Assembly (NCBI GenBank): GCA_000720535.1
Contig: JOAZ01000013.1
Location: 62,001 to 126,000 of the forward strand
Reading direction: 5' to 3'
DNA: 64,000 nt
Source: Streptomyces halstedii
Lineage (GTDB): Bacteria; Actinomycetota; Actinomycetes; Streptomycetales; Streptomycetaceae
The notes below the pieces were generated by a model, which was given only the letters and a program-made list of their open reading frames with translations, had not been told where the DNA came from and made no database searches. Each line of letters starts with the position of its first letter. The stretch's first letter is position 1. The position numbers and the translations under genes are program-made. Of this stretch, positions 3,171-17,946 are shown piece by piece.

Positions 3171-3193
3171 GTGTCGGTGGGTCGGCCTAGACT
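3171..3193 (+). promoter_or_regulatory. Candidate DNA-damage (RecA-independent, PafBC-type) promoter of pcrA
   Basis: GTGTCGGTGGG (3171-3181), then 6 bp, then TAGACT (3188-3193). The actinobacterial RecA-NDp consensus is TTGTCAGTGGC, six bases, TAGggT. Here 8 of 11 positions of the upstream block match and the spacing is exact. The pcrA ATG starts at 3203, 9 nt after the -10, so the leader is very short or absent. Confidence 0.55.
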
Positions 3194-3202
3194 CGTGAGG
3201 CG

Positions 3203-5641
3203 ATGAGCAGCCTCTTTGACGACAGTTTCCTGGCCGGCCTCCAGCAGGCGGACGACGGCCCCCCGCCGCCTCCCGAGGAGCAGGTACCCGAAGCGGTGCC
3301 GGAGGGTCTCTTCGGCGATGTCTTCGACACCCCTCCGCCGCCACGCGAGACGCACTACCGCGACGGCGCCCCGCGGCCCGTCATCGACTCCGCCGCACTG
3401 CTCGACGGGCTGAACACCGAGCAGCGCGCCGCCGTCGTGCACGCCGGTTCCCCCCTGCTCATCGTGGCCGGTGCCGGCTCCGGCAAGACCCGGGTGCTGA
3501 CCCACCGGATCGCCCACCTGCTGGCCGAGCGCGGGGTGCATCCGGGGCAGATCCTCGCGATCACCTTCACCAACAAGGCCGCCGGTGAGATGAAGGAGCG
3601 CGTCGAGGAGCTCGTCGGCCCGCGCGCCAACGCCATGTGGGTCATGACGTTCCACAGCGCCTGCGTGCGGATCCTGCGCCGCGAGTCCAAGCTCCTCGGC
3701 TTCACCTCGTCGTTCTCCATCTACGACGCGGCCGACTCCAAGCGTCTGATGGCCCTGGTCTGCCGCGACCTGGACCTCGACCCGAAGCGCTACCCGCCGA
3801 AGTCGTTCACCGCGAAGGTCTCCAACCTCAAGAACGAGCTGATCGACGAGGAGACGTTCGCCGGGCAGGCCTCGGACGGTTTCGAGAAGACGCTGGCCCA
3901 GGCGTACGCGCTCTACCAGGCACGGCTGCGCGAGGCCAACGCCCTCGACTTCGACGACATCATCATGACGACGGTGCACCTGCTCCAGGCGTTCCCCGAC
4001 GTCGCCGAGCACTACCGCCGCCGCTTCCGGCACGTCCTGGTCGACGAGTACCAGGACACCAACCACGCCCAGTACACCCTGGTGCGTGAGCTGGTCGGAC
4101 CGTCCGGAGAGGCCGACGCCCCCGGTGAGCTGTGCGTCGTCGGTGACGCGGACCAGTCGATCTATGCCTTCCGGGGCGCGACGATCCGCAACATCCTCCA
4201 GTTCGAGGAGGACTACCCGGACGCCACGACGATCATGCTGGAGCAGAACTACCGCTCCACGCAGACGATCCTGTCCGCGGCCAACGCCGTCATCGAGCGC
4301 AACGAGAGCCGCCGCCCCAAGAACCTCTGGACGAACGCCGGCGCCGGTACCCGGATCACGGGGTACGTGGCGGACACCGAGCACGACGAGGCGCAGTTCG
4401 TCGCCGAGGAGATCGACCGGCTGACGGACGCCGGGGAGGCGAAGGCCGGCGACGTCGCGGTCTTCTACCGGACGAACGCCCAGTCCCGTGTCTTCGAAGA
4501 GATCTTCATCCGGGTCGGCCTGCCGTACAAGGTCGTCGGCGGCGTCCGCTTCTACGAGCGCAAGGAGGTCAGGGACGTCCTTGCCTATCTGCGGGTTCTC
4601 GCCAACCCCGAGGACACCGTCCCGCTGCGCCGCATCCTCAACGTGCCCAAGCGCGGCATCGGGGACCGGGCCGAGGCGATGATCGACGCCCTGTCGATGC
4701 GCGAGAAGATCTCCTTCCCGCAGGCGCTGCGCCGCGTGGACGAGGCGTACGGCATGGCGGCCCGCTCGGCCAACGCCGTGAAGCGGTTCAACACGCTGAT
4801 GGAGGAGCTCCGCACGATCGTGGAGTCGGGCGCCGGGCCCGCGGTCGTGCTGGAAGCCGTCCTGGAGCGCACGGGCTATCTCGCCGAACTCCAGACGTCC
4901 ACCGACCCGCAGGACGAGACCCGCGTCGAGAACCTTCAGGAACTCGCGGCCGTAGCCCTGGAGTTCGAGCAGGACCGGGCCGAGGAGGAGGGTGCGGGCA
5001 CGCTCGCGGAGTTCCTGGAGAAGGTCGCGCTCGTCGCCGACTCCGACCAGATCCCCGACGAGGACGCGGACGGGGCCGGAGTCATCACGCTGATGACGCT
5101 GCACACCGCGAAGGGCCTGGAGTTCCCCGTGGTCTTCCTGACCGGCATGGAGGACGGCGTCTTCCCGCACATGCGCGCGCTGGGCCAGGTCAAGGAGCTG
5201 GAGGAGGAGCGCCGGCTCGCCTACGTCGGCATCACGCGCGCCCGCGAGCGGCTGTACCTGACGCGGGCGGCGATGCGGAGCGCCTGGGGCCAGCCCTCGT
5301 ACAACCCGCCGTCGCGGTTCCTGGAGGAGATCCCGGACCAGCACCTGGAGTGGAAGCGCAAGGGCCCGATGGCGGCCCCGGCGGGACCCACCTCGGGCAT
5401 CACCTCGTCGCTGTCCTCGTCCCGTTCGAAGTCCGGCCCGTCCGGGTTCGCGACCCGGCGCGCGTCGGAGAAGCCGGTCGTCACCCTGGTGGTGGGGGAC
5501 CGGGTCACGCACGACCAGTTCGGGCTGGGCACCGTGACGGCGGTCGAGGGGTTCGGTGACCAGGCCAAGGCCACGGTCGACTTCGGTGACGAGCGGCCGA
5601 AGAAGCTGCTCCTGCGGTACGCGCCGGTCGAGAAGCTCTGA
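3203..5641 (+). CDS. pcrA: ATP-dependent 3'-5' DNA helicase PcrA/UvrD
   Basis: An 812-residue superfamily 1 helicase for nucleotide-excision and recombination repair and for removing RecA or replication blocks. Visible motifs: Q-motif region NTEQRAAV (about 71-78), Walker A GAGSGKT (90-96), motif Ia TFTNKAAGEM, Walker B VDEYQDTN, GDADQSIYAFRG (motif III), EQNYRS (motif IV), TAKGLEFP (motif V) and VGITRARERL (motif VI). The C-terminal 50 residues (DRVTHDQFGLGTV...) match the Tudor-like tail of PcrA that contacts RNA polymerase. The first ~65 residues are an acidic, Pro-rich actinobacterial extension. It is a single gene, terminated by the strong hairpin at 5647-5689, and its promoter resembles DNA-damage promoters. 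Confidence 0.97.
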   Translation: MSSLFDDSFLAGLQQADDGPPPPPEEQVPEAVPEGLFGDVFDTPPPPRETHYRDGAPRPVIDSAALLDGLNTEQRAAVVHAGSPLLIVAGAGSGKTRVLTHRIAHLLAERGVHPGQILAITFTNKAAGEMKERVEELVGPRANAMWVMTFHSACVRILRRESKLLGFTSSFSIYDAADSKRLMALVCRDLDLDPKRYPPKSFTAKVSNLKNELIDEETFAGQASDGFEKTLAQAYALYQARLREANALDFDDIIMTTVHLLQAFPDVAEHYRRRFRHVLVDEYQDTNHAQYTLVRELVGPSGEADAPGELCVVGDADQSIYAFRGATIRNILQFEEDYPDATTIMLEQNYRSTQTILSAANAVIERNESRRPKNLWTNAGAGTRITGYVADTEHDEAQFVAEEIDRLTDAGEAKAGDVAVFYRTNAQSRVFEEIFIRVGLPYKVVGGVRFYERKEVRDVLAYLRVLANPEDTVPLRRILNVPKRGIGDRAEAMIDALSMREKISFPQALRRVDEAYGMAARSANAVKRFNTLMEELRTIVESGAGPAVVLEAVLERTGYLAELQTSTDPQDETRVENLQELAAVALEFEQDRAEEEGAGTLAEFLEKVALVADSDQIPDEDADGAGVITLMTLHTAKGLEFPVVFLTGMEDGVFPHMRALGQVKELEEERRLAYVGITRARERLYLTRAAMRSAWGQPSYNPPSRFLEEIPDQHLEWKRKGPMAAPAGPTSGITSSLSSSRSKSGPSGFATRRASEKPVVTLVVGDRVTHDQFGLGTVTAVEGFGDQAKATVDFGDERPKKLLLRYAPVEKL

Positions 5642-5742: not shown

Positions 5743-7527
5743 GCCATGGCTGCGGAGCCAGGGCGTCGGGTCGATCGCCGCGCCGCCACCGGGGCGTACC
5801 TCGAAGTGGAGGTGCGGGCCGGTGGAGTTGCCGGAGCTTCCGGAGTACGCGATGACGTCGCCCGCCTTGACCGAACCGGCACGGATCTTGGTGGTGCTGA
5901 GGTGGCAGTACCAGGTCTCCGTGCCGTCGGCCGCGGTGACGATGGCCATGTTCCCGTAGGCGCTGTTGTACTGGGTGCGCACGGTGCCGTCGGTCGCCGC
6001 CATCACCGGGGTGCCGTACGAGACGGGGAAGTCGATGCCGGTGTGGACGGACATCCAGTTCACGCCCGCCTGGCCGTACGACGCGCTGAGCCCGTGCTGC
6101 TTCACCGGGAGCATGAACTTGGGGCGCAGCGCCTCACGGCGGGCGGCCTCCTCCTCCCGCTTCTTCTTCTCCGCCGCCTGACGCTCTTTCAGGTCGATGC
6201 GCTCCTGGGTGCGGCTGGCGCGGTCCGCGAAGTTCTCGGCGTCGGCACTGAGGTTGGCGAGCTGCGTGTCGAGCTTGTTGTTGGCGACGGCCGGCTTGAC
6301 GGTGTCGGCGGCCGCCATGGACGTGGTGTCGTCCTTCTTCTCGTCCGCGTCCGTCACGCCGCTCACGGAGGCGGCGGCGATACCCGCGACGCTCATCACG
6401 CAGGCGGAGGGAACGGCCACGGTGAGCAGGGCGGAACGCTTCGCGGGGGTACGGCGCCGTCCGCGGCCGCCCCCACGCTGGACCGAACGCCCCACCGGGG
6501 CCGAGGGGGAGGGGACACGGGCCGCGGGCACGTCGATGACCTCGGCCAACTCGGTGACCGCGTCGTGGATACCGGCGGGCTCCCTGGCGGGCTCCCCAGC
6601 GGACTCGTGCTCACCCCGCGCGTCCATGAACGGTCCGTCCGTGAACGACTCGTTCGCGATCGGCCCGTCGGTGAACGGTCCGTCCGTGGGCGGCTCGTGT
6701 CCGGCCATGGACGAGGGGTCGGCGGAGGAGGCCGAGGGCTGCGGACCGGTGGCCTCGCGGGCGTAGTCGTGGTCGCGGAAGTCGTGGCCGCTGAACTCGG
6801 CCGTCTCGTACGGCTGGTGGGAATCGCCCCGGTGTTCGTACGGCGGGTACGACGTCTGTTCGGTGGCGTATGCCGTGGTCTCGGGCGTGTCGCCGGTGTT
6901 CCAGGCGGTGGCGTCCCAGGCCCCGGTGTCGGCCGGAGCGTACGCGGAGGAGCCGAGGGCGTCCGCCGCGAAGGCTGGTGCCGTGTACGTGCCCGTGGCG
7001 TACGCCGTGTCCGCGAACGTGGCGGTGGGGAAGGCGCCGGTGTCCCCGCTGCCCCACGGATCGGCGGGGGCGGTGTTCCAGCCGCTGGTGTCCCACTGGC
7101 CCGTCGCGTCGGGGGTGACCATCTGGGTGGGGAGGCCCACTTCGGGCATCCAGATGGCGGTGGTGTCGTAGCTCTGCTGGGGCTGCGGGTGGCCCTGGGC
7201 GCCGTAACTCTCGTACGGGGCGGCCTGCTGGTGGGCTCCGGTGTCCCACTGGCCGCTGTCCCATTGGCCGGTGTGGTGCGCGCCTGTGTCGTACTGGCCG
7301 GTGGGGTGCGGCTGTTGCCCGGATCCCGTGGTGTCGCCGTAGCCGCCGTACGGGGTGTCCGGCGTGCCGTACGCGGCGCTGAAGCCGCTGCCGTACGTCG
7401 TGCTGTGGCTGTCGTCGTGGCTCTCGCCGTGGCCCGGGAGCGTTCCGAAGAGCGGATCGGTGGTGTAGCTGCCGGTGGTGCCGCTGTCGTATCCGGCATA
7501 CCCGGCGTGGGGGTGCTGGTCGTTCAC
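5728..7527 (-). CDS. Large M23-family metallopeptidase with Gly/Thr/Tyr/Gln-rich N-terminal region and one membrane segment
   Basis: About 599 residues. A long low-complexity N-terminal half (repeats such as GQWDTG, ATAWNTG and TDGPF) precedes a basic stretch (RRTPAKR) and one hydrophobic segment (LLTVAVPSACVMSVAGIAA, about 360-385). A coiled coil follows (about 410-465), then a C-terminal peptidase M23/LytM domain (about 475-599) with zinc-ligand motifs HTGID and HLHFEV. It probably sits in the membrane with its N-terminus inside and the peptidoglycan-cleaving domain outside. GTG at 7527 is taken as the start; an in-frame TTG is immediately upstream at 7530. The repetitive cytoplasmic half is typical of Streptomyces M23 proteins and its role is unknown. 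Confidence 0.9.
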   Translation of the reverse strand: MNDQHPHAGYAGYDSGTTGSYTTDPLFGTLPGHGESHDDSHSTTYGSGFSAAYGTPDTPYGGYGDTTGSGQQPHPTGQYDTGAHHTGQWDSGQWDTGAHQQAAPYESYGAQGHPQPQQSYDTTAIWMPEVGLPTQMVTPDATGQWDTSGWNTAPADPWGSGDTGAFPTATFADTAYATGTYTAPAFAADALGSSAYAPADTGAWDATAWNTGDTPETTAYATEQTSYPPYEHRGDSHQPYETAEFSGHDFRDHDYAREATGPQPSASSADPSSMAGHEPPTDGPFTDGPIANESFTDGPFMDARGEHESAGEPAREPAGIHDAVTELAEVIDVPAARVPSPSAPVGRSVQRGGGRGRRRTPAKRSALLTVAVPSACVMSVAGIAAASVSGVTDADEKKDDTTSMAAADTVKPAVANNKLDTQLANLSADAENFADRASRTQERIDLKERQAAEKKKREEEAARREALRPKFMLPVKQHGLSASYGQAGVNWMSVHTGIDFPVSYGTPVMAATDGTVRTQYNSAYGNMAIVTAADGTETWYCHLSTTKIRAGSVKAGDVIAYSGSSGNSTGPHLHFEVRPGGGAAIDPTPWLRSHGVNPN

Positions 7528-9390: not shown

Positions 9391-9405
9391 TCATCCCCAT
9401 GCGTC
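9234..9405 (-). repeat. Six degenerate ~28-bp tandem repeats that include the DUF5691 stop region
   Basis: Units at 9234-9261, 9262-9289, 9290-9316, 9317-9349 (6-bp insertion), 9350-9377 and 9378-9405. The shared core on the plus strand is GGTCAYCC, 2-4 bases, then ATGCTCC. The unit nearest the gene contains the codons and TGA stop (9391-9393) of the DUF5691 protein. The other five read as successive copies of that 3' end. Confidence 0.85.
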
Positions 9406-11304
9406 GGGGCCAGCCGGGTGCCGCGTCGTCTCGCCGTGGTCCGGCTCCGGATCGGGGTCAGGATCGGGGTCAGGACCGGGGTCCGGCGACGGTCGCCCGC
9501 CGTCGTTCCCCGTCAGCTCCCTCTCCATGGCGGCGCGCAGGCGCAGGGTGGCGACCAGGCGCCGGAACGCCTCCGACCAGTAGCCGCCCGCGCCCGGTGA
9601 GGCGTCTTCCGGCTCGTCCTGTGTCGTGGTGAGCACTTCGAGCCGGTCCGCCTCCGCCGGGTCGAGACAACGCTCGGCCAGGCCCATGACACCGCTGAAG
9701 CTCCACGGGTAACTCCCCGCGTCGCGCGCGATGTCCAGCGCGTCGACCACCGAACGGCCGAGCGGTCCGGCCCAGGGGACGGCACAGACGCCGAGTAGTT
9801 GGAAGGCCTCGGACAGGCCGTGCGCCGCGACGAAACCGGCTGCCCAGTCCGCCCGCTCGGCCGGAGGCAGGGTCGCCAGGAGCTGTGAGCGTTCGGACAG
9901 GGAGGCCGTGCCGGGGCCGCTCGCCGGAGGTATGGAGGGGGCACCCAGCAGCGCCCTGGCCCATGCCGGGTCCCGTTGCCGCACCGCCGCCCGGCACCAC
10001 GCGGCGTGCAGTTCGGCCTCCCAGCCGTCGGCCACCGGCAGGGCGACGATCTCCTGAGCGGTGCGGCCCCCGAACCGCTCCCGCCAGACGGTGAGCGGGG
10101 CGGCTTCCACCAACTGACCCAGCCACCAGGAGCGTTCACCACGCCCGGACGGGGGGACCGGTGTCACGCCGTCCCGCTGCATGTCGGCGTCGCATTCGTG
10201 CGGGGCCTCCACGGCGACCGTCAGCCCTTCGCCCGTACGGTCGGCGTTCACACACGTCAGCGCCCGCGAAGCCATCCGCCGGGCCAGTGCCGATGCGGGC
10301 AGGGTGGACAGCAACTCGGCCGCCACGGAACGGACGTTGCGGCTACGGTCCGACAACGCCGCCTCCAGGAAGGGCTCGTCGGCGTCACCGAGACCCTCGC
10401 GGAGGGCGTCGAGGAACATCAGCCGGTCTTCCGCGCGCTCGGCGGACCACGTACCGGCGAGCAGGGTCCGTCCGGCAGAGGGATCCTGCGCCCGTATCGC
10501 ACCGAGCAGCGCGACCCGTTCCGCGAAGAGCCCCTCTTCCCAGAGCCGCCGCACCGCGTCCGGGTCGTCGGCGGCGGTGAGACGGGCGCCGTTCGAGGCG
10601 CGCAGGGCGAACCTCCACTCCGGGTTCAGAGCCGCCAGCCAGAGCCCGCGCGGCCCCGCGAAGGACAGCACGTACGGCCGTAGATCCGTGCGTGCTCTGG
10701 CCGCGTCCAGCAGCGCGGGCAACAACTCGGCCGGGGCACGGAAACCGCGCTCACCGGCCAGGGCCAGCCATTGTGGGATGAGCTCGGTGAGATCGGGTGC
10801 CGCGCCCCGGCGGCCGCCGCCGGACGGCGCGGAACGGTCGGCCAGCAGGTGCGCGAGCCGTCTGCGCGCCGCTCCAGGCAGCGGCGGCCGGAGGTCGGGA
10901 GGCGCCGGTACGGGCGGTGTGGCGCCGACCGAGGGGAGCAGCGCGGCCCGACGCCGCACGGTGTGCAGCGCGGCCGCCTCCAGAAGCGCCGCCGGACCGT
11001 CCGTGGGGCGCGGAGCCGATGAGCCGGGAGCCGACAAGCCCGGAGCCGATGAGCCCGGAGTCGGCGGGCGGGGTGCCGATGAGCCGGCGCCTGTCCTACC
11101 GGTCCGCAGCGGGCGGCGGTCCGTGCCCAGCAGCGCCGAGGTGACCAACTCCTCCCAGGGGATGGTCACGGCCGACGGGCCGGGCTCGGAGGCGGCGGGG
11201 GACGTCGGTGCCGAGGACGAGGCAGTGGTGGCGGGACTGGCGGAAGTAGTGGACGTGGTGGGGGTGATGGACGTGGTGGAGGTGATGGACGTGGTGCCGG
11301 ACAT
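9391..11304 (-). CDS. DUF5691 family protein of the MoxR/VWA locus
   Basis: A 637-residue soluble protein. The first ~45 residues are Thr/Ser-rich. The recognisable family start is IPWEELVTSALLGTDRRPL (about 49-67). The middle has helical, HEAT-like stretches (FLEAALSDRSRNVRSVAAELLSTLP). The tail ends in a Pro-Asp alternation (PDPGPDPDPDPDPEPD). The start ATG at 11304 has GGAGGG 7-8 nt upstream. It follows the truncated SWIM-family gene with 78 nt between them, so both are probably co-transcribed away from the MoxR operon. No catalytic motif is visible. I infer a scaffold or adaptor role in the same system. Confidence 0.85.
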   Translation of the reverse strand: MSGTTSITSTTSITPTTSTTSASPATTASSSAPTSPAASEPGPSAVTIPWEELVTSALLGTDRRPLRTGRTGAGSSAPRPPTPGSSAPGLSAPGSSAPRPTDGPAALLEAAALHTVRRRAALLPSVGATPPVPAPPDLRPPLPGAARRRLAHLLADRSAPSGGGRRGAAPDLTELIPQWLALAGERGFRAPAELLPALLDAARARTDLRPYVLSFAGPRGLWLAALNPEWRFALRASNGARLTAADDPDAVRRLWEEGLFAERVALLGAIRAQDPSAGRTLLAGTWSAERAEDRLMFLDALREGLGDADEPFLEAALSDRSRNVRSVAAELLSTLPASALARRMASRALTCVNADRTGEGLTVAVEAPHECDADMQRDGVTPVPPSGRGERSWWLGQLVEAAPLTVWRERFGGRTAQEIVALPVADGWEAELHAAWCRAAVRQRDPAWARALLGAPSIPPASGPGTASLSERSQLLATLPPAERADWAAGFVAAHGLSEAFQLLGVCAVPWAGPLGRSVVDALDIARDAGSYPWSFSGVMGLAERCLDPAEADRLEVLTTTQDEPEDASPGAGGYWSEAFRRLVATLRLRAAMERELTGNDGGRPSPDPGPDPDPDPDPEPDHGETTRHPAGPDAWG

Positions 11305-11382: not shown

Positions 11383-12654
11383 TCAGACGAGGGCGACGAT
11401 CGGGCAGCCGTCCGCTTCCTGTGCGCTCGCACGCGACGCGTCGGCTTCCCGCACGCCGGTGACCTGTGCGGTCGGGCCCGCACCGCCCATGTCGCGGGCG
11501 CCCACGCCTCGTTCGGACCCGCCCCGTTCGTGGGTGTCAGGTCCGTGAGCGTCTGCCTCGCCCGGGTGCCACGCGGCCAGCGGGTCGAATCCCCGGTGAC
11601 CGCACTCGCCGAACACCGAGACGGGTCGGCCCCCGGCGAGCGCGACCAGCTTCCACAGGCCGGAGCGGGACAGCGCCTCGGGTGTGATCGGCAGGGCGGA
11701 GCCGTCCGAGGCCCCCACCAACTGCCAACCTCCCCCCGACGGCACGGGTATCGCGTCCCGCAGGGTGACCGGCCACGTGTCCAGCCAGGGATCGTCGCGC
11801 AGCGCCCGTCCGTACGCGGCGGTGGCCTCGGCCGTCGTGCCACCACGCGGCGGTGCGGCCCCGGTGGCCAGGGTCCCGAACGGCTCACCCAGATCGCCCC
11901 GCAGCCGCCCGCCGCCCGGATACCGCGTGACCTCCGCGTCGATCGTCGTGCCCACCGTGAGGGAACGGGCAGGGGCTCGCCCGGGGGCCCCGAAGGACAG
12001 CAGCAGCGTCGTGCGTCCGGACTCCTGTCCGTACAGCCAGATGCGTCGGGCCACCAGCTTGCCGTCCGGTGTGTCGTGCTGGGCGAGGACCAGCCACCGG
12101 TCGCGGAGGGGCGGCCCCTCGGCGGCTGCCGTCAGCCCGACCCGCGTGCGGACCGTGGCGGCCAACGGGGCCGGCAGATGCTCTCTCCGGAGCCAGGCGG
12201 AGTCCAGCAGATGCAGCAACGCGCACTCTTCGAGCAGCCGGACCGGCCAGTCCGGGCCCGATGTGGTGATCGCCCCCAGCTTCCGCACCCGGGCGGCGAG
12301 TCCCGGGGCCTGTGCGTCGACCATGCGGGCCGCCGTCTCCTCCCACAGGCCGTAGTCCGGGCGGTCCGCGGCGGCGATCCCGCCGCGCAGCAGGTCGGTG
12401 AGGCGCTGCTCCAACTCCAGGGCCCCGCCGGTGATCCGCTCGGCACGACGCTCCGCGCGCCGCCTGGCCGCCTCCGGATCGACGGGGCCGCCACCCGTCG
12501 TGGCCCTCACTCCGGCTCCCTGGCGTGCCGGGCCAGGTGCCGCCCCGGCGACGCGTGAGGCGTCGTCAGGCACGCCTGCCCGCGCCTCTTCCGCCGTCCC
12601 GCGCACCGACGGGCAGGCGGTGTGCGTGGGTTCTCCCCCGTGAGATCTCAGCAT
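11383..12654 (-). CDS. SWIM-family protein lacking the N-terminal SWIM zinc finger
   Basis: 423 residues. From about residue 64 (PEAARRRAERRAERITGG) to the end it matches the Streptomyces SWIM zinc-finger family as I know it, including ARMVDAQAPGLAARVR, LLEECALLHLLD, DRWLVLAQHD and VFGECGHRGF. That family normally begins with ~100 residues carrying a CxCx(n)CxH finger. Here the first ~60 residues are unrelated Ala/Pro/Gly-rich sequence. No finger motif occurs in the other two frames of 12480-12660, and the divergent MoxR gene starts at 12783, leaving no room. The start at 12654 is supported by a promoter whose -10 lies 7 nt upstream. The last ~40 residues are low-complexity. The product is either a functional short form or a decayed one. 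Confidence 0.75.
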   Translation of the reverse strand: MLRSHGGEPTHTACPSVRGTAEEARAGVPDDASRVAGAAPGPARQGAGVRATTGGGPVDPEAARRRAERRAERITGGALELEQRLTDLLRGGIAAADRPDYGLWEETAARMVDAQAPGLAARVRKLGAITTSGPDWPVRLLEECALLHLLDSAWLRREHLPAPLAATVRTRVGLTAAAEGPPLRDRWLVLAQHDTPDGKLVARRIWLYGQESGRTTLLLSFGAPGRAPARSLTVGTTIDAEVTRYPGGGRLRGDLGEPFGTLATGAAPPRGGTTAEATAAYGRALRDDPWLDTWPVTLRDAIPVPSGGGWQLVGASDGSALPITPEALSRSGLWKLVALAGGRPVSVFGECGHRGFDPLAAWHPGEADAHGPDTHERGGSERGVGARDMGGAGPTAQVTGVREADASRASAQEADGCPIVALV

Positions 12655-12661
12655 GGTGAAG

Positions 12662-12684
12662 ACGGTAGAAGGCACCACTGACAA
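12662..12684 (-). promoter_or_regulatory. RecA-independent DNA-damage (PafBC-type) promoter, minus strand
   Basis: On the minus strand TTGTCAGTGGT (12684-12674), then GCCTTC, then TACCGT (12667-12662), then 7 nt and ATG. Ten of 11 positions of the RecA-NDp upstream block match with exact 6-bp spacing. The -10 to ATG distance predicts a leaderless mRNA for the SWIM-family gene. Confidence 0.75.
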
Positions 12685-12721
12685 CGGCCTCCGACCTGCG
12701 CTTTCGTCGCCCGGCGGTCGA

Positions 12722-12744
12722 TTGTCAGTGCCATGGTGCACGGT
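12722..12744 (+). promoter_or_regulatory. RecA-independent DNA-damage (PafBC-type) promoter, plus strand
   Basis: TTGTCAGTGCC (12722-12732), six bases, then CACGGT (12739-12744). The upstream block matches the consensus at 10 of 11 positions. The -10 is weak because the first base is C rather than T. Together with the minus-strand element it forms an inverted repeat (CACTGACAA ... TTGTCAGTG). The predicted leader to the MoxR ATG is ~32 nt with GGAGGGGG as ribosome-binding site. Confidence 0.6.
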
Positions 12745-12782
12745 GGAGGACACATCGGGTCGAACGATCTGGAGGGGGATCC

Positions 12783-13967
12783 ATGACCGTGTCCGAGTCC
12801 GTACACACCGCTTCGACCACCACCGCCTCGACCACCGCTTCGACGCCCGTCGTGCCCACTGCCGCGGGGGCCGGCGCCGCCACGCCGGACGGGGTGCTGA
12901 GGCCGCACGCCGAGCACGCCTTCGCGGACGAGCTCAGGGCCCTCGCCGCCGCGGACGACCGTCCCCGGCCGGCCCGTTGGCGGCTTTCGCCGTGGGGCGT
13001 CGCCACCTACCTGCTCGGCGGCACCCTGCCGGACGGCACGGTGATCACTCCCAAGTACGTGGGGCCCCGCCGCCTCGTCGAAGTCGCCGTCAGCACGCTC
13101 GCCACCGACCGGGCGCTGCTGCTCCTCGGTGTGCCGGGCACCGCCAAGACCTGGGTGTCCGAGCATCTCGCCGCGGCGGTCAGCGGGGACTCGACCCTGC
13201 TCGTGCAGGGCACGGCCGGCACCCCGGAGGAGGCCGTCCGCTACGGCTGGGACTACGCGCAACTGCTCGCCCACGGCCCCAGCCGGGCCGCGCTCGTGCC
13301 GAGCCCCGTCATGCGGGCCATGGCCGAGGGCACGACCGCCCGGGTGGAGGAGCTCACCCGCATACCGGCCGATGTGCAGGACGCGCTGATCACCATCCTG
13401 TCGGAGAAGACACTGCCCGTACCGGAGCTCGGGCAGGAGGTCCAGGCCGTGCGCGGGTTCAACCTCATCGCCACCGCCAACGACCGTGACCGGGGGGTCA
13501 ACGAGCTCTCCAGCGCGCTGCGTCGGCGCTTCAACACGGTGGTGCTGCCGCTGCCCGCCACCCCCGACGCGGAGGTGGACATCGTGTCCCGCCGTGTGGA
13601 GCAGATCGGCCGCTCACTGGATCTGCCCCCGACGCCGGACGGGACGGCGGAGATCCGGCGGGTCGTCACCATCTTCCGTGAACTGCGCGACGGCGCCACC
13701 ACGGACGGCCGGTCCAAGCTCAAGTCGCCGTCGGGAACGCTGTCCACGGCCGAGGCGATCTCCGTCGTCACCGGCGGCCTCGCGCTCGCCGCCCACTTCG
13801 GTGACGGTGTCCTGCGGCCCGGCGACGTCGCGGCCGGCATCATGGGCGCGGTCGTCCGGGACTCCGCCACGGACCGGGTGGTGTGGCAGGAGTACCTGGA
13901 GACCGTGGTGCGTGAGCGGGACGGCTGGCAGGACTTCTACCGCGCCTGCCGTGAGGTCTCCGCATGA
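12783..13967 (+). CDS. MoxR-type AAA+ ATPase
   Basis: A 394-residue AAA+ ATPase. Walker A GVPGTAKT is at residues 116-123. The Walker B region is RVEELTRIP, with Glu-Glu where MoxR proteins usually have Asp-Glu. Sensor 1 is LIATANDRDRG, followed by SSALRRRF with the candidate Arg finger. The first ~35 residues are a Thr/Ser-rich tail. MoxR ATPases act as chaperone-like remodelers with VWA partners, and a VWA gene lies two genes downstream in the same operon. The start ATG 12783 has GGAGGGGG upstream. The stop overlaps the next start by 4 nt (ATGA), implying coupled translation. Confidence 0.92.
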   Translation: MTVSESVHTASTTTASTTASTPVVPTAAGAGAATPDGVLRPHAEHAFADELRALAAADDRPRPARWRLSPWGVATYLLGGTLPDGTVITPKYVGPRRLVEVAVSTLATDRALLLLGVPGTAKTWVSEHLAAAVSGDSTLLVQGTAGTPEEAVRYGWDYAQLLAHGPSRAALVPSPVMRAMAEGTTARVEELTRIPADVQDALITILSEKTLPVPELGQEVQAVRGFNLIATANDRDRGVNELSSALRRRFNTVVLPLPATPDAEVDIVSRRVEQIGRSLDLPPTPDGTAEIRRVVTIFRELRDGATTDGRSKLKSPSGTLSTAEAISVVTGGLALAAHFGDGVLRPGDVAAGIMGAVVRDSATDRVVWQEYLETVVRERDGWQDFYRACREVSA

Positions 13968-16636
13968 CGGCCCGTGCACCCGCGCGTGCGCCCGGCCGTG
14001 CCGCTCGTGGCGGTGCGGCCGGGGCGGATCCCGCGACGCCCGGCGGGCCGCTGCTGCTCGGGGTACGCCACCACGGACCGGGCTCCGCCCGAGCGGTTCT
14101 CGCCGCCCTGGAGCACGTCCGGCCGCGAGCCGTGCTCATCGAGGGGCCGCCGGAGGGCGACGCCCTGCTGTCGCTCGCCGCCGACGAGCGGATGCGTCCG
14201 CCCGTGGCCCTGCTTGCCCACGCCGTGGACGACCCGGGGAGGGCCGCGTTCTGGCCGATGGCGGCCTTCTCGCCGGAATGGGTGGCGATCCGCTGGGCGT
14301 CGGCGCACCAGGTCCCGGTGCGGTTCATGGACCTGCCCGCCGCGCATGCCCTGGCGGTGCCGGAGCAGCCCGAGCCCCGGCAGGAGGACGCCCGGTCGTT
14401 CGACCCGATCGGCGTCCTGGCCTCGACCGCCGGATACGACGATCCGGAGCGCTGGTGGGAGGACGTGGTCGAGCACCGTGCGGCAGACGGGGCACCGGGC
14501 GACCCACGGGCACCGTTCGCCGCGCTCGCCGAGGCGATGGGCGCGCTGCGTGAGGCGTACGGCGACGGCGGGCACCCCCGGGACGCGGTCCGGGAGGCCT
14601 GCATGCGGCTGCGGTTGCGGGCCGCCCGGAAGGAGTTCGGGGACGGCGTCGCCGTCGTCTGCGGCGCGTGGCACGTTCCCGCACTGGCCGCGCGGACGAC
14701 GGTCGCCGCCGACAAGGCGCTCCTCAAGGGCATCCCCAAGGTGCGGACCGAGACGACCTGGGTGCCCTGGACCCACCGCAGGCTCGCCCGGCACAGCGGA
14801 TACGGCGCGGGGATCGAGTCGCCCGGCTGGTACGGCCACCTCTTCGACGCCCCGGACAGGCCCCTCGAACGCTGGATGACCAAGGTCGCCAGGCTGCTCC
14901 GCGAGGAGGACCGCCTCGTCTCCTCCGCCCATGTCATCGAAGCGGTGCGTCTCGCCGAGGCCCTGGCCGCGGTGCGGGGCCGCCCGGCCGCCGGTCTCAC
15001 GGAGGCCACCGACGCGGTCCGTGCGGTCATGTGCGAGGGGTCCGACGTCCCGCTGGCCCTCGTCCACGACCGGCTCGTCGTCGGTGAGGCACTCGGGGCG
15101 GTCCCGGACGGCGCACCCGCCGTGCCGTTGCAGCGGGACCTCGCCGGACAGCAGCGCACGCTCAGGCTCAGGCCGGAGGCGGAGCGACGCGGGCTGGAGC
15201 TCGACCTGCGCAAGGACACCGACGCGGCCCGCAGCCGGCTCCTGCACCGGCTGAGGCTCCTCGGCGTCGGCTGGGGCGAACCGTCGGCGGGCCGGGGCGG
15301 CACCGGTACCTTCCGGGAGAGCTGGCAGCTGCACTGGCAGCCCGAGCTGTTCGTCCGGGTCGCGGAGGCCGGGGCGTGGGGCACCACCGTGCTCTCCGCC
15401 GCGTCCGTCCGCGCCGAGTCCGACGCGGTGTCGGCGACGACGCTCGCCGAGGTGACCGCGCTCGCCGAGCACTGCCTGCTGGCCGGGCTGCCCGACGTGC
15501 TGGCCGCCGTCATGGACGCCCTCGCGGCCCGCGCCGCCCTCGACGCGGACGTCGGCCACCTCGCGGACGCGCTGCCGGCGCTGGCCCGTGCCCTGCGCTA
15601 CGGAGACGTACGTGCCACGGACACGGCCGCACTCTCGACCGTGGCCCTCGGCCTCGCCGAACGGGTCTGCGTGGGCCTGCCGTCCGCCTGTACGGGCCTC
15701 GACCCGGCCGCCGCCGAGGAACAGCGTGGTCGGGTGGACGGGATACACACCGCCGTCACCCTGCTGGCGGGAGCAGGAGCGGGAGCAGGAGCGGGAGCGG
15801 GAGCGGGAGCAGGAGAGGGAGAGGAGAGTGCGGGTCCGGGGCCCGGCGGAGGGGCGGGCGCAGAGAGCGGAGCGGGCACAGGGGGTGGAGCGGAAGGCGG
15901 GGCCGAAGCGGGCGCAGTGGCTGGCGCCGGATCGCCGGGCGGCGGGCTGAGGGAGCGCTGGACGGGTGTCCTGCGCAGGCTCGCGGCCCGGGACACGGTC
16001 GCGGGCGTCCTTCGGGGCCGGGCCACCCGGCTGCTCCTCGACGACGGGCACCTCCCCGAGGAGGAGGCGGCACGGCTGATGGGCCTGGCCCTCTCACCCG
16101 GCGCGCCACCCACCGACGCGGCGGCCTGGATCGAGGGCTTCGTCGGCGGGGCGGCAGGGGGCGGAACGCTGCTCGTCCACGACGAACGTCTGCTGGGCCT
16201 GGTGGACGGCTGGCTGACCTCCATACCTCCCGCGTCGTTCACCGCCGTGCTGCCCCTGCTCCGGCGCACCTTCTCCACGTACGAACCAGGGGTGCGCCGC
16301 ACCCTGGGCGAGCTCGTCCGCCGCGGCCCGGCTCCGGGCGGTGACCACCGTGCGAGCGACGCCGAGACCGACGGCTTCGGACCGGGACTCGATGGGGAAC
16401 GGGCCGACGCGGTGGTTCCGGTATTGCGGTTGCTGCTCGGCCTCGACACCGGAGAGGGGAGCACCGGAGGCGAGAGAGCGGCGACGGAGACCGCGGCGAC
16501 GGAGAGCGCGAACACCGAACAGACAGCCGGAACGGAGCAGATCGCCGGAACGGAACAGACAGCCGGGACGGAACAGACAGCCGGGACGGAACAGATCGCG
16601 GCGGGTACCGAAGCGGGGAGGACGGCGACGCGATGA
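13964..16636 (+). CDS. DUF5682 family protein, middle gene of the MoxR-VWA operon
   Basis: An 890-residue protein of unknown biochemistry. The conserved start LLGVRHHGPGSARAVL (about 31-46) with EGPPEGDALL shortly after is characteristic of DUF5682. The His-rich strand and following acidic motif recall TraB/ChaN/erythromycin-esterase-type folds, which is an inference. An internal Gly-Ala-Glu tract (about 603-650) and a C-terminal run of TEQTAG/TEQIAG units look like recent expansions. It overlaps both neighbours by 4 nt, so the three proteins are probably made in fixed ratio and act together. Confidence 0.88.
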   Translation: MTARAPARAPGRAARGGAAGADPATPGGPLLLGVRHHGPGSARAVLAALEHVRPRAVLIEGPPEGDALLSLAADERMRPPVALLAHAVDDPGRAAFWPMAAFSPEWVAIRWASAHQVPVRFMDLPAAHALAVPEQPEPRQEDARSFDPIGVLASTAGYDDPERWWEDVVEHRAADGAPGDPRAPFAALAEAMGALREAYGDGGHPRDAVREACMRLRLRAARKEFGDGVAVVCGAWHVPALAARTTVAADKALLKGIPKVRTETTWVPWTHRRLARHSGYGAGIESPGWYGHLFDAPDRPLERWMTKVARLLREEDRLVSSAHVIEAVRLAEALAAVRGRPAAGLTEATDAVRAVMCEGSDVPLALVHDRLVVGEALGAVPDGAPAVPLQRDLAGQQRTLRLRPEAERRGLELDLRKDTDAARSRLLHRLRLLGVGWGEPSAGRGGTGTFRESWQLHWQPELFVRVAEAGAWGTTVLSAASVRAESDAVSATTLAEVTALAEHCLLAGLPDVLAAVMDALAARAALDADVGHLADALPALARALRYGDVRATDTAALSTVALGLAERVCVGLPSACTGLDPAAAEEQRGRVDGIHTAVTLLAGAGAGAGAGAGAGAGEGEESAGPGPGGGAGAESGAGTGGGAEGGAEAGAVAGAGSPGGGLRERWTGVLRRLAARDTVAGVLRGRATRLLLDDGHLPEEEAARLMGLALSPGAPPTDAAAWIEGFVGGAAGGGTLLVHDERLLGLVDGWLTSIPPASFTAVLPLLRRTFSTYEPGVRRTLGELVRRGPAPGGDHRASDAETDGFGPGLDGERADAVVPVLRLLLGLDTGEGSTGGERAATETAATESANTEQTAGTEQIAGTEQTAGTEQTAGTEQIAAGTEAGRTATR
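15768..15815 (+). repeat. Six-base GGAGCA/GGAGCG microsatellite inside DUF5682
   Basis: About eight units of GGAGC(A/G) encode an alternating Gly-Ala tract. The unit length is a multiple of three, so slippage keeps the frame. Confidence 0.85.
16514..16610 (+). repeat. 18-bp tandem repeats at the 3' end of DUF5682
   Basis: Five units resembling ACGGAACAGACAGCCGGG encode TEQTAG or TEQIAG. The repeat is in frame and near-identical between copies, suggesting recent expansion. Confidence 0.85.
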
Positions 16637-17946
16637 CCACGTCCAGGGAGACCACCGGCGCGAAGGAGCGGCAGATGGCGGCGGCGGGTGCCGGCGGCGC
16701 GAAGGGTGTCGGCGGACATGCCGGTCACGGAAGACACGGCGGACACGACGCGCACGACGAGCGGTTGCGGCGCTGGCGCCTGGTGCTCGGACCGGACGGT
16801 GCCGAGAGCACCGGACGCGCGCTCACCGGCCAGGACGCGGCGCGGGACGGTGCGTTGTCCGCGTTGTACGGCGGCGGGAAGAAGCCCGGCGGCCGTGGCG
16901 GGATCGAGCGTTCCGCAGGGCTCGGGGCGTCCGCCCCGGCTGTCGCCCGCTGGCTCGGCGACATCCGTACGTACTTCCCGGGCCCCGTCGTCCAGGTCAT
17001 GCAGCGTGACGCGATCGACCGCCTGGGACTGTCCGCACTGCTGCTGGAGCCGGAGATGCTGGAGGCCGTGGAGCCGGACGTCCACCTCGTCGGCACCCTG
17101 CTCTCCCTGAACAAGGCGATGCCCGAGACCACCAGGGAGACCGCACGGGCCGTCGTCCGCAAGGTCGTCGAGGACCTGGAGAGGCGACTGGCATCCCGCA
17201 CCAGGGCCACGCTCACCGGCGCGCTGGACCGTTCGGCCGTCACGGCCCGGCCGCGCCCAGGGGACATCGACTGGGACCGCACCATCCGGGCCAACCTCAA
17301 GAACTACCTGCCCGAGCACCGCACGGTCGTCCCCGAACGGCTCGTCGGACACCGCCGCGCCGCCCGGTCGGTGAGGAAGGAGGTCATCCTCTGCATCGAC
17401 CAGTCCGGGTCCATGGCCGCGTCCGTCGTCCACGCCGCGGTCTTCGGCGCGGTGCTCGCCTCCATGCGCACCCTGTCGACGCGGCTGGTCGTGTTCGACA
17501 CCGCCGTGGCCGACCTCACCGACCAGTTGGACGACCCGGTCGACGTGCTGTTCGGCACCCAACTCGGGGGCGGTACGGACATCAACCGCGCGCTCGCCTA
17601 CTGCCAGTCGAGGATCACCCGGCCCGCCGACACCGTCGTCGTACTCATCAGCGATCTCTACGAAGGCGGCATCCGCGACGAGATGCTCGAACGAGCGGCG
17701 GCGATGACGGCCTCCGGCGTCCAGTTCGTGACATTGCTCTCCCTTTCGGACGAGGGGGCGCCGGCGTACGACCGGGCACACGCAGCGGCGCTGGGCGCAC
17801 TCGGTGCCCCTGCCTTCGCCTGCACGCCCGACCTGTTCCCCGAGGTCATGGCCGCCGCACTGGAGAAGCGGCCGCTTCCCGTACCGGACCCCGGCGCCGA
17901 CGTGCCGTTCCGTCCTCCGTACCCCGGTCACCAGGGGGGTCTGTGA
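16633..17946 (+). CDS. VWA-domain protein of the MoxR/DUF5682 operon
   Basis: 437 residues. The C-terminal half is a von Willebrand factor A domain with a full MIDAS metal site: DQSGSM (about 256-261), the Thr in GGGTD and the Asp in VLISDLYEGG. The N-terminal ~65 residues are Gly/His-rich, then a conserved helical region (about 65-245) typical of these MoxR-linked VWA proteins. It lacks a signal peptide, so it is cytoplasmic. The start at 16633 overlaps the DUF5682 stop by 4 nt. It is the presumed partner or substrate adaptor of the ATPase encoded two genes upstream. Confidence 0.92.
   Translation: MTTSRETTGAKERQMAAAGAGGAKGVGGHAGHGRHGGHDAHDERLRRWRLVLGPDGAESTGRALTGQDAARDGALSALYGGGKKPGGRGGIERSAGLGASAPAVARWLGDIRTYFPGPVVQVMQRDAIDRLGLSALLLEPEMLEAVEPDVHLVGTLLSLNKAMPETTRETARAVVRKVVEDLERRLASRTRATLTGALDRSAVTARPRPGDIDWDRTIRANLKNYLPEHRTVVPERLVGHRRAARSVRKEVILCIDQSGSMAASVVHAAVFGAVLASMRTLSTRLVVFDTAVADLTDQLDDPVDVLFGTQLGGGTDINRALAYCQSRITRPADTVVVLISDLYEGGIRDEMLERAAAMTASGVQFVTLLSLSDEGAPAYDRAHAAALGALGAPAFACTPDLFPEVMAAALEKRPLPVPDPGADVPFRPPYPGHQGGL

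Follow-up and report, generated by a model that had tools for sequence, protein, structure and literature searches.

RecA-independent DNA-damage promoters of actinobacteria (RecA-NDp), the class attributed to the regulator PafBC, are described for mycobacteria and for recA and the macrodomain gene SCO6735 of Streptomyces coelicolor; SCO6735 is reported, in the available part of that paper, to be induced 5-fold by UV (PMC5087735). A RecA/LexA-independent damage response in Streptomyces is still to be shown according to the accessible sections of a 2022 paper, in which an initial search suggested that the PafBC motif of M. smegmatis is not conserved in S. venezuelae (PMC9380542). Here, we analysed a stretch of 64,000 nucleotides from the 7.74-Mb genome of Streptomyces halstedii (the window; G000:C13:62001-126000), in which a 128-bp intergenic region separates two divergent gene arms: on the left an orthologue of SWIM-domain-protein genes followed by a DUF5691 gene, on the right genes for a MoxR-type AAA+ ATPase, a DUF5682 protein and a CoxE-type VWA protein. 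An original prediction, made from the letters of this DNA, had placed one RecA-NDp/PafBC-type element before each arm and tied the locus to the DNA-damage response. We consider it probable, with good confidence, that the region comprises two divergent PafBC-dependent (RecA-NDp) promoters through which both arms would be induced by DNA damage, with a third box standing in helical phase with both elements.

Candidate elements were scored against TTGTCRGTG-N8-TANNNT, which we take to be the RecA-NDp/PafBC consensus of the RecA-NDp literature and which reportedly stems from Gamulin et al. 2004. The left-arm element, TTGTCAGTG-N8-TACCGT, lies on the minus strand at 12662-12684 (read from 12684 to 12662 as TTGTCAGTGGTGCCTTCTACCGT) and has 0 mismatches to this consensus; it is followed by 7 nt and then by the ATG at 12654-12652. 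The right-arm element, TTGTCAGTG-N8-CACGGT, lies on the plus strand at 12722-12744 (TTGTCAGTGCCATGGTGCACGGT) and has 1 mismatch. The TTGTCRGTG block is present in both, and in the part N8 plus TANNNT the minus element matches (TACCGT) whereas the plus element is off by one (CACGGT). The coordinates confirm both positions and the 7-nt distance of the original prediction. Sites with at most 1 mismatch number 3 in the window, against a mean of 0.067 and a largest count of 1 in 60 dinucleotide shuffles, and a divergent pair of such sites within 128 bp appeared in 0/60 shuffles. The earlier statement that chance was unlikely holds, with conservation across orthologous loci as the decisive evidence. 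GAAC-N4-GTTC, the core of the SOS box, was not found at 1 mismatch or fewer in 12501-12900, where two copies with 2 mismatches occur. A third RecA-NDp-like site of the window (GTGTCGGTGGGTCGGCCTAGACT, 3171-3193, plus strand, 1 mismatch) stands 9 nt ahead of the start of a UvrD/PcrA-type helicase gene assigned by Pfam (3203-5641).

Is this divergent pair a common feature of Streptomyces? We compared 107 loci, namely the window, the 80 best MoxR matches in named genomes (all Streptomyces and picked without regard to the motif) and 26 further genomes of the genus from which an orthologue was fetched; another genome of the latter draw (G234) holds the paralogue only. The MoxR DNA is distinct in 105 of the 107 loci. 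The original prediction had named conservation of the blocks in orthologous intergenic regions as the point at which it could fail; both elements are present in divergent orientation in 107/107 loci (80/80 named, 26/26 further genus, and the window). At the 80 named loci, 156 of the 160 elements have at most 1 mismatch and 4 have 2, and the rest of the same 934,727 bases contains 1 site with at most 1 mismatch. Since the start codon of the left gene follows the minus -10 hexamer after 7 nt in 101/107 and after 6 nt in 6/107 loci, the left-arm mRNA is probably leaderless. On the right side, the spacer of the element (..TGGTG, 12731-12740 in the window) is well kept and present at most loci. Even the 20 loci in which the two elements lie 446-764 nt apart have retained both. 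Such long gaps (e.g. L002, L004, L007 and L013) carry between the arms a short reading frame with a lipoprotein-like start (..LGLGACS..) in 16/20 cases by a regular-expression test.

The motif is also widespread outside this locus. The background scan proposed with the original prediction was run with the consensus, not a matrix, and with the reversed pattern as control: perfect sites number 18 in the window genome, and allowing up to 1 mismatch raises the count to 80, compared with 5 for the reversed pattern. In 28 genomes of the genus we counted 699 perfect sites against 4 reversed-pattern sites, in 10 named Streptomyces genomes 304 against 1, and at least one perfect site occurs in 216 of 296 genomes of the class. 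These counts, which cover 28 genus genomes and 10 named Streptomyces genomes other than S. venezuelae, sit badly with the remark on non-conservation in that species. Targets were judged from the reading frame downstream of 30 of the 80 sites (18 perfect, 12 with one mismatch). Perfect sites precede genes for RecA, UvrB, a RecD2-type helix-hairpin-helix protein, a DEAD-box helicase, uracil-DNA glycosylase, an exonuclease III-type protein and DnaX. The others stand before genes for a SWIM protein, an ECF sigma factor, a SUKH-4 protein, an ABC permease and a DUF4132 protein, before three unassigned frames and the window gene, and before two weak matches (macrodomain, 21.0 bits with a cut-off of 22; VWA, 21.6 bits with a cut-off of 27). 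Genes for DNA polymerase III alpha, DNA polymerase I, 6-O-methylguanine methyltransferase and a PD-(D/E)XK nuclease follow four of the 12 one-mismatch sites; another four have other genes downstream, and the remaining four lack a convincing gene. The genome also encodes adjacent pafB and pafC, with a Pup-ligase-family gene about 1.6 kb upstream of them: L179:2384-3397 carries WYL and WCX domains and is taken as PafB by its place, and L179:3416-4369 carries HTH_PafC, WYL and WCX domains and is taken as PafC.

A paralogous MoxR/DUF5682/VWA island lies on contig C11 of the same genome (L177, G000:C11), where DUF5682 and VWA read as one frame. It bears a perfect element at 3245-3267, which shares the strand of MoxR, precedes it by about 6 kb and stands before a DUF4132 gene. 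Corresponding elements of 1 mismatch or fewer occur 6.0-6.6 kb upstream in 15/15 islands fetched from the genus, the window genome included, and the DUF4132 gene was found by tblastn in 8/15. Because two separate islands bear the same type of element, the sequences argue for a genuine link of this machine to the damage response; the sites before DNA-repair genes, the encoded PafB and PafC and this second island all lend support to the corresponding claim of the original prediction. In a different genome of the genus, a MoxR/VWA locus of yet another kind (L199, G073:C10) also has a perfect element at 6818-6840, about 3.5 kb upstream of MoxR.

Between the two elements of the window lies a third conserved box, GCAGGTC, on the minus strand at 12693-12699. 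It stands 8 nt upstream of the minus element, and 22 nt separate it from the plus element. An exact GCAGGTC is found within the gap at 94/107 loci, in long gaps partly by chance. At 88/107 loci it is phased, i.e. separated by 7-8, 19-20 or 30 nt from the element downstream to which it points, and the same holds for 75/83 loci with gaps of at most 100 nt. In the phased copies GTC is followed by A or G in 88/88 and then by G in 81/88; the box can thus be extended to GCAGGTCRG and shares GTCRG with the TTGTCRGTG block. The GTCRG cores of the box and the near element are 12-13 bp apart.

The gap between the two elements (37 nt in the window, 12685-12721) varies over the genus in stepped length classes. 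Gaps of 25-27 nt occur at 8 of the 107 loci, of 36-39 nt at 48, of 49 nt at 16, of 59-61 nt at 8 and of 446-764 nt at 20, with single loci at 71, 85, 89, 125, 155, 171 and 187 nt, and gaps of 28-35, 40-48, 50-58 or 62-70 nt occur at 0/107. A quick tree built from MoxR DNA calls for a minimum of 28 changes in gap class; the 49-nt class by itself requires 9 changes, and well-supported branches force 7 of these. The gaps are best fitted by a period of 11.55-11.85 bp; in this test, made after the pattern had been noticed, both random models stood at the floor of 5000 draws. The distance from the box to the other element follows the same rhythm (11-12, 22-23, 34-35, 45-46, 57 or 70 nt at 75 loci with gaps of at most 100 nt); the fitted step is 11.59 bp with turn numbers preassigned, and a free scan has its best period at 11.65 bp. 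In the available part of a study on lac repression in E. coli, in vivo fits of three data sets give helical repeats of 11.60, 11.08 and 10.95 bp/turn, and negative supercoiling is given as the explanation for the set at 11.60 (PMC1762422). The steps, mostly of about 11.6 bp, lie within this in vivo range. That the box and the elements are spaced in such steps suggests that the sites need the same face of the double helix.

Similar offsets are seen at other sites of the genus. In 21 genus genomes, locus under study included, the distance from an upstream GCAGGTC to TTGTCAGTG is 7-8 nt in 33/44 cases, 18-20 nt in 7 and 30 nt in 1, with 3 out of step. Among 43 matches of the reverse box at TTGTCAGTG, 8 lie at 11-12 nt, 11 at 22-23 nt, 5 at 34 nt and 3 at 31 or 37 nt; 16 at 24 nt, apparently one coding locus, were put aside. 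The comparison with TTGTCGGTG, a mostly coding background, gave clusters elsewhere (16 nt forward; 30 and 36 nt reverse) that seem to be recurrent coding loci. Perfect elements with a box at 7-8 nt number 29 in 27 of 61 genomes searched. Judged by eye from the first residues of the downstream frames, 18 of them belong to this SWIM locus, 5 to a second SWIM gene and 6 to others including an ECF sigma factor. In the window genome, the ECF sigma-factor site L091 has the reverse-form box at 23 nt. The second SWIM-protein family (L088, L207, L208, L214, L215 and L226) shows a leaderless perfect element, with the GCAGGTC box in five loci, and Pfam detects the SWIM zinc finger in L088.

From this spacing we infer that one phased nucleoprotein array may serve both arms. 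Because the box carries the GTC-R-G of the known element, with the purine in place in 88/88 copies, we speculate that GCAGGTCRG could be a second PafBC binding site. In such an arrangement at least two PafBC-RNA polymerase complexes would, in Streptomyces, line up in phase along one face of the negatively supercoiled DNA, and one small loop or filament would fire both arms together. It would be used by a subset of PafBC-type promoters, above all those of SWIM-type genes, and could be tuned by damage-induced changes in supercoiling. We offer this picture tentatively, as a possible reading about which some doubt is in order.

Other families of the class arrange the same genes differently. We compared 34 loci from outside the genus, from families f17, f4, f18, f26 and f42, where some contigs are cut, so that not all five genes are seen in each. 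For the genes detected, the order is one-way in 34/34: SWIM gene, DUF5691, MoxR, DUF5682, VWA. These families have no conserved element before MoxR. In f17, an element with at most 2 mismatches ends 6-8 nt ahead of an in-frame start of the SWIM gene, the first of the row, in 18 of the 22 loci that have this gene; a three-mismatch version occupies the leaderless place in four f18 loci and in the f42 locus. Both f4 loci (L155 and L157) have a RecA-NDp-like site with 1 and 2 mismatches, respectively, upstream of the SWIM-type gene and off the leaderless place. The simplest history, judged from gene order, would be that one operon with one leaderless PafBC-type promoter was split in the Streptomyces line into two divergent arms and that the MoxR arm acquired an element of its own.

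Several findings weigh against the interpretation of the region as two damage-induced promoters with a phased third box. Gaps of 89 and 125-187 nt fit the steps poorly, and only one of the three lac data sets gives 11.60, the others giving 11.08 and 10.95 in the part of the study available (PMC1762422). An exact GCAGGTC is missing from the gap in 13/107 loci and from the phased place in 19/107, and among the 30 sites examined in the window genome, that of recA included, the window minus element is the only one with a box at 7-8 nt. Outside the genus, the second island has a site with at most 1 mismatch in 0/5 loci. The leaderless element is absent from 4/22 f17 loci, one of them cut by a contig end, and at up to 2 mismatches it precedes the SWIM gene in 0/6 f18, 0/2 f4, 0/1 f26 and 0/1 f42 loci. 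Finally, the -10 hexamer of the right element starts with CA, not TA, in 107/107 loci, so the right promoter may be weaker or work differently. The same feature would be expected if the left element alone worked and the right one were a weak or silent relic or a constitutive promoter. Nevertheless, the right TTGTCAGTG is as conserved as that of the left, the right spacer is more conserved, and the polA site of the window genome likewise has a CA-type -10 (CAGGAT), which makes this explanation improbable to us.

The steps of 11-12 bp could alternatively reflect a mutational habit of inserting or deleting about 12 bp, in place of selection for helical phase. Exact 12-steps are indeed common (37 to 49 to 61), and the spacing of the GTCRG cores would agree with them. 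However, aligned sister loci show insertions of 11, 12 or 24 bp at differing places which, by eye, do not copy neighbouring sequence, the box has kept its phase to both elements, and the same offsets recur at other TTGTCAGTG sites of the genus; we regard a mutational habit as rather unlikely. Another question is whether the elements are served by PafBC or by a different WYL-domain regulator. WYL regulators are frequent in Actinobacteria, as the accessible part of one paper states (PMC6789036), one of them, SiwR, responds to genotoxic stress in M. smegmatis according to the available part of another (PMC10693628), and the third box hints at an extra factor. The motif, on the other hand, fits the PafBC class, pafB and pafC lie side by side in the window genome, and the same element stands before recA and uvrB, so that we judge service by another regulator quite improbable. 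As to a chance similarity free of regulatory meaning, a looser pattern with up to 3 mismatches has 2 matches against 0.48 expected and reaches at least 2 in 6/100 shuffles, and is thereby less telling. A chance origin is hardly credible in view of the conservation in 107/107 loci at a fixed distance from the left start and of a single comparable site elsewhere in the 0.93 Mb of the 80 named loci. We thus retain the two divergent PafBC-dependent promoters with their phased box as the preferred interpretation; three findings go beyond the original prediction, namely the phased box, the one-way operon in other families and, as described below, a lost SWIM domain.

The right arm starts with P0002 (12783-13967, plus strand), a MoxR-type AAA+ ATPase (AAA_5, 128.5 bits) whose relatives by sequence in the PDB are midasin and NorQ. 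It is followed on the same strand by P0003 (DUF5682, 13964-16636) and by P0004, a CoxE-type VWA protein (VWA_CoxE, 199.9 bits; 16633-17946). The left arm, on the minus strand, consists of P0001 (11383-12654) and P0005 (DUF5691, 9391-11304), the latter predicted to be all-alpha and solenoid-like. P0003 and P0005 match DUF5682 and DUF5691 over the whole profile and no further Pfam family; for P0003, modelling weakly suggests an EreA/ChaN-like N-terminal domain with helical repeats after it. The label 'SWIM-family' that the original prediction gave to P0001 needs correction: the protein is orthologous to SWIM-domain proteins, yet it has no Pfam match and the SWIM zinc finger (PF04434) is lost. 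Its orthologues carry a CxC..PCKH motif near the N-terminus in 97/107 loci, and in orthologue L018 Pfam calls SWIM (PF04434) at residues 73-91.

The zinc finger has apparently been lost repeatedly from this type of gene, with the C-terminal part staying. SWIM-less loci make up 10/107 of those of the genus, including the very short frames L073 and L125; among such loci are that of the window (11383-12654, minus strand), L023, L052, L054, L058, L120, L136 and L137. L219 also lacks the finger, as judged by eye. Six lie outside the genus (L148, L149, L151, L152 and L153 of f17, and L155 of f4).

How might the locus work? By analogy with mycobacteria, DNA damage would give rise to single-stranded DNA, upon which PafBC would be activated, and active PafBC would let the housekeeping RNA polymerase start at both promoters. 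From the left promoter, the SWIM-gene orthologue and DUF5691 would be expressed on a leaderless mRNA, and the right one would serve MoxR, DUF5682 and VWA, so that a single damage signal would call up both halves of an AAA+ protein-remodelling machine. The third box, phased with both elements, would probably let proteins bound on one face cooperate at both promoters. In related families the genes of this machine run one way, and in one of these families they are mostly preceded by a single promoter of this type. The machine itself may remodel or remove damaged or stalled protein complexes.

These observations bear on the question, left open in the accessible sections of the 2022 paper, of a RecA/LexA-independent damage response in Streptomyces (PMC9380542). 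Since the motif is plain throughout the genus and stands before recA, uvrB and other genes, the question can be addressed at once with a pafBC deletion. For an uncharacterised AAA+ system of MoxR, VWA, DUF5682, DUF5691 and SWIM-type proteins, present in two paralogous islands, DNA damage is now the predicted condition of use. The phased third box, derived from evolution, adds a concrete and cheap prediction on promoter architecture.

In summary, the locus resembles the RecA-NDp/PafBC promoters of mycobacteria and of S. coelicolor recA and SCO6735 in its -26 motif and, at the minus element, in its spacing and -10 class, the plus element being one mismatch off, and shares with these systems the presence of pafB and pafC, a start codon near the predicted transcript start and the occurrence of the element on DNA-repair genes. 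Unlike them, it has back-to-back elements and a third phased GCAGGTCRG box; the parts of the RecA-NDp/PafBC literature searched contain no mention of such a pair or box. The same set of protein types presumably occupies one locus in E. coli, where we take yehLMPQ to encode MoxR, DUF5682-like, VWA and SWIM proteins; to our knowledge, E. coli has no PafBC. The MoxR-vWA ternary conflict systems likewise co-encode a MoxR AAA+ ATPase and a VWA protein in the available part of their description by Kaur et al. 2020 (PMC7159879). Their third partners are given there as VMAP, iSTAND, FtsH-type and beta-propeller proteins instead of the DUF5682, DUF5691 and SWIM-type genes found here, where the bpMoxR score of 20.9 bits stays under its cut-off of 27, and the terms 'SWIM' and 'DUF5682' are absent from the text (PMC7159879). 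The stepped spacing of about 11.6 bp, in turn, is like that of looping in the E. coli lac system, as far as the available part of that study goes (PMC1762422). In contrast to lac, the arrangement proposed here would be of the activator type and serve two promoters, with PafBC as one candidate for the protein bound at the box, and its step was read from the evolution of a genus and not from constructs.
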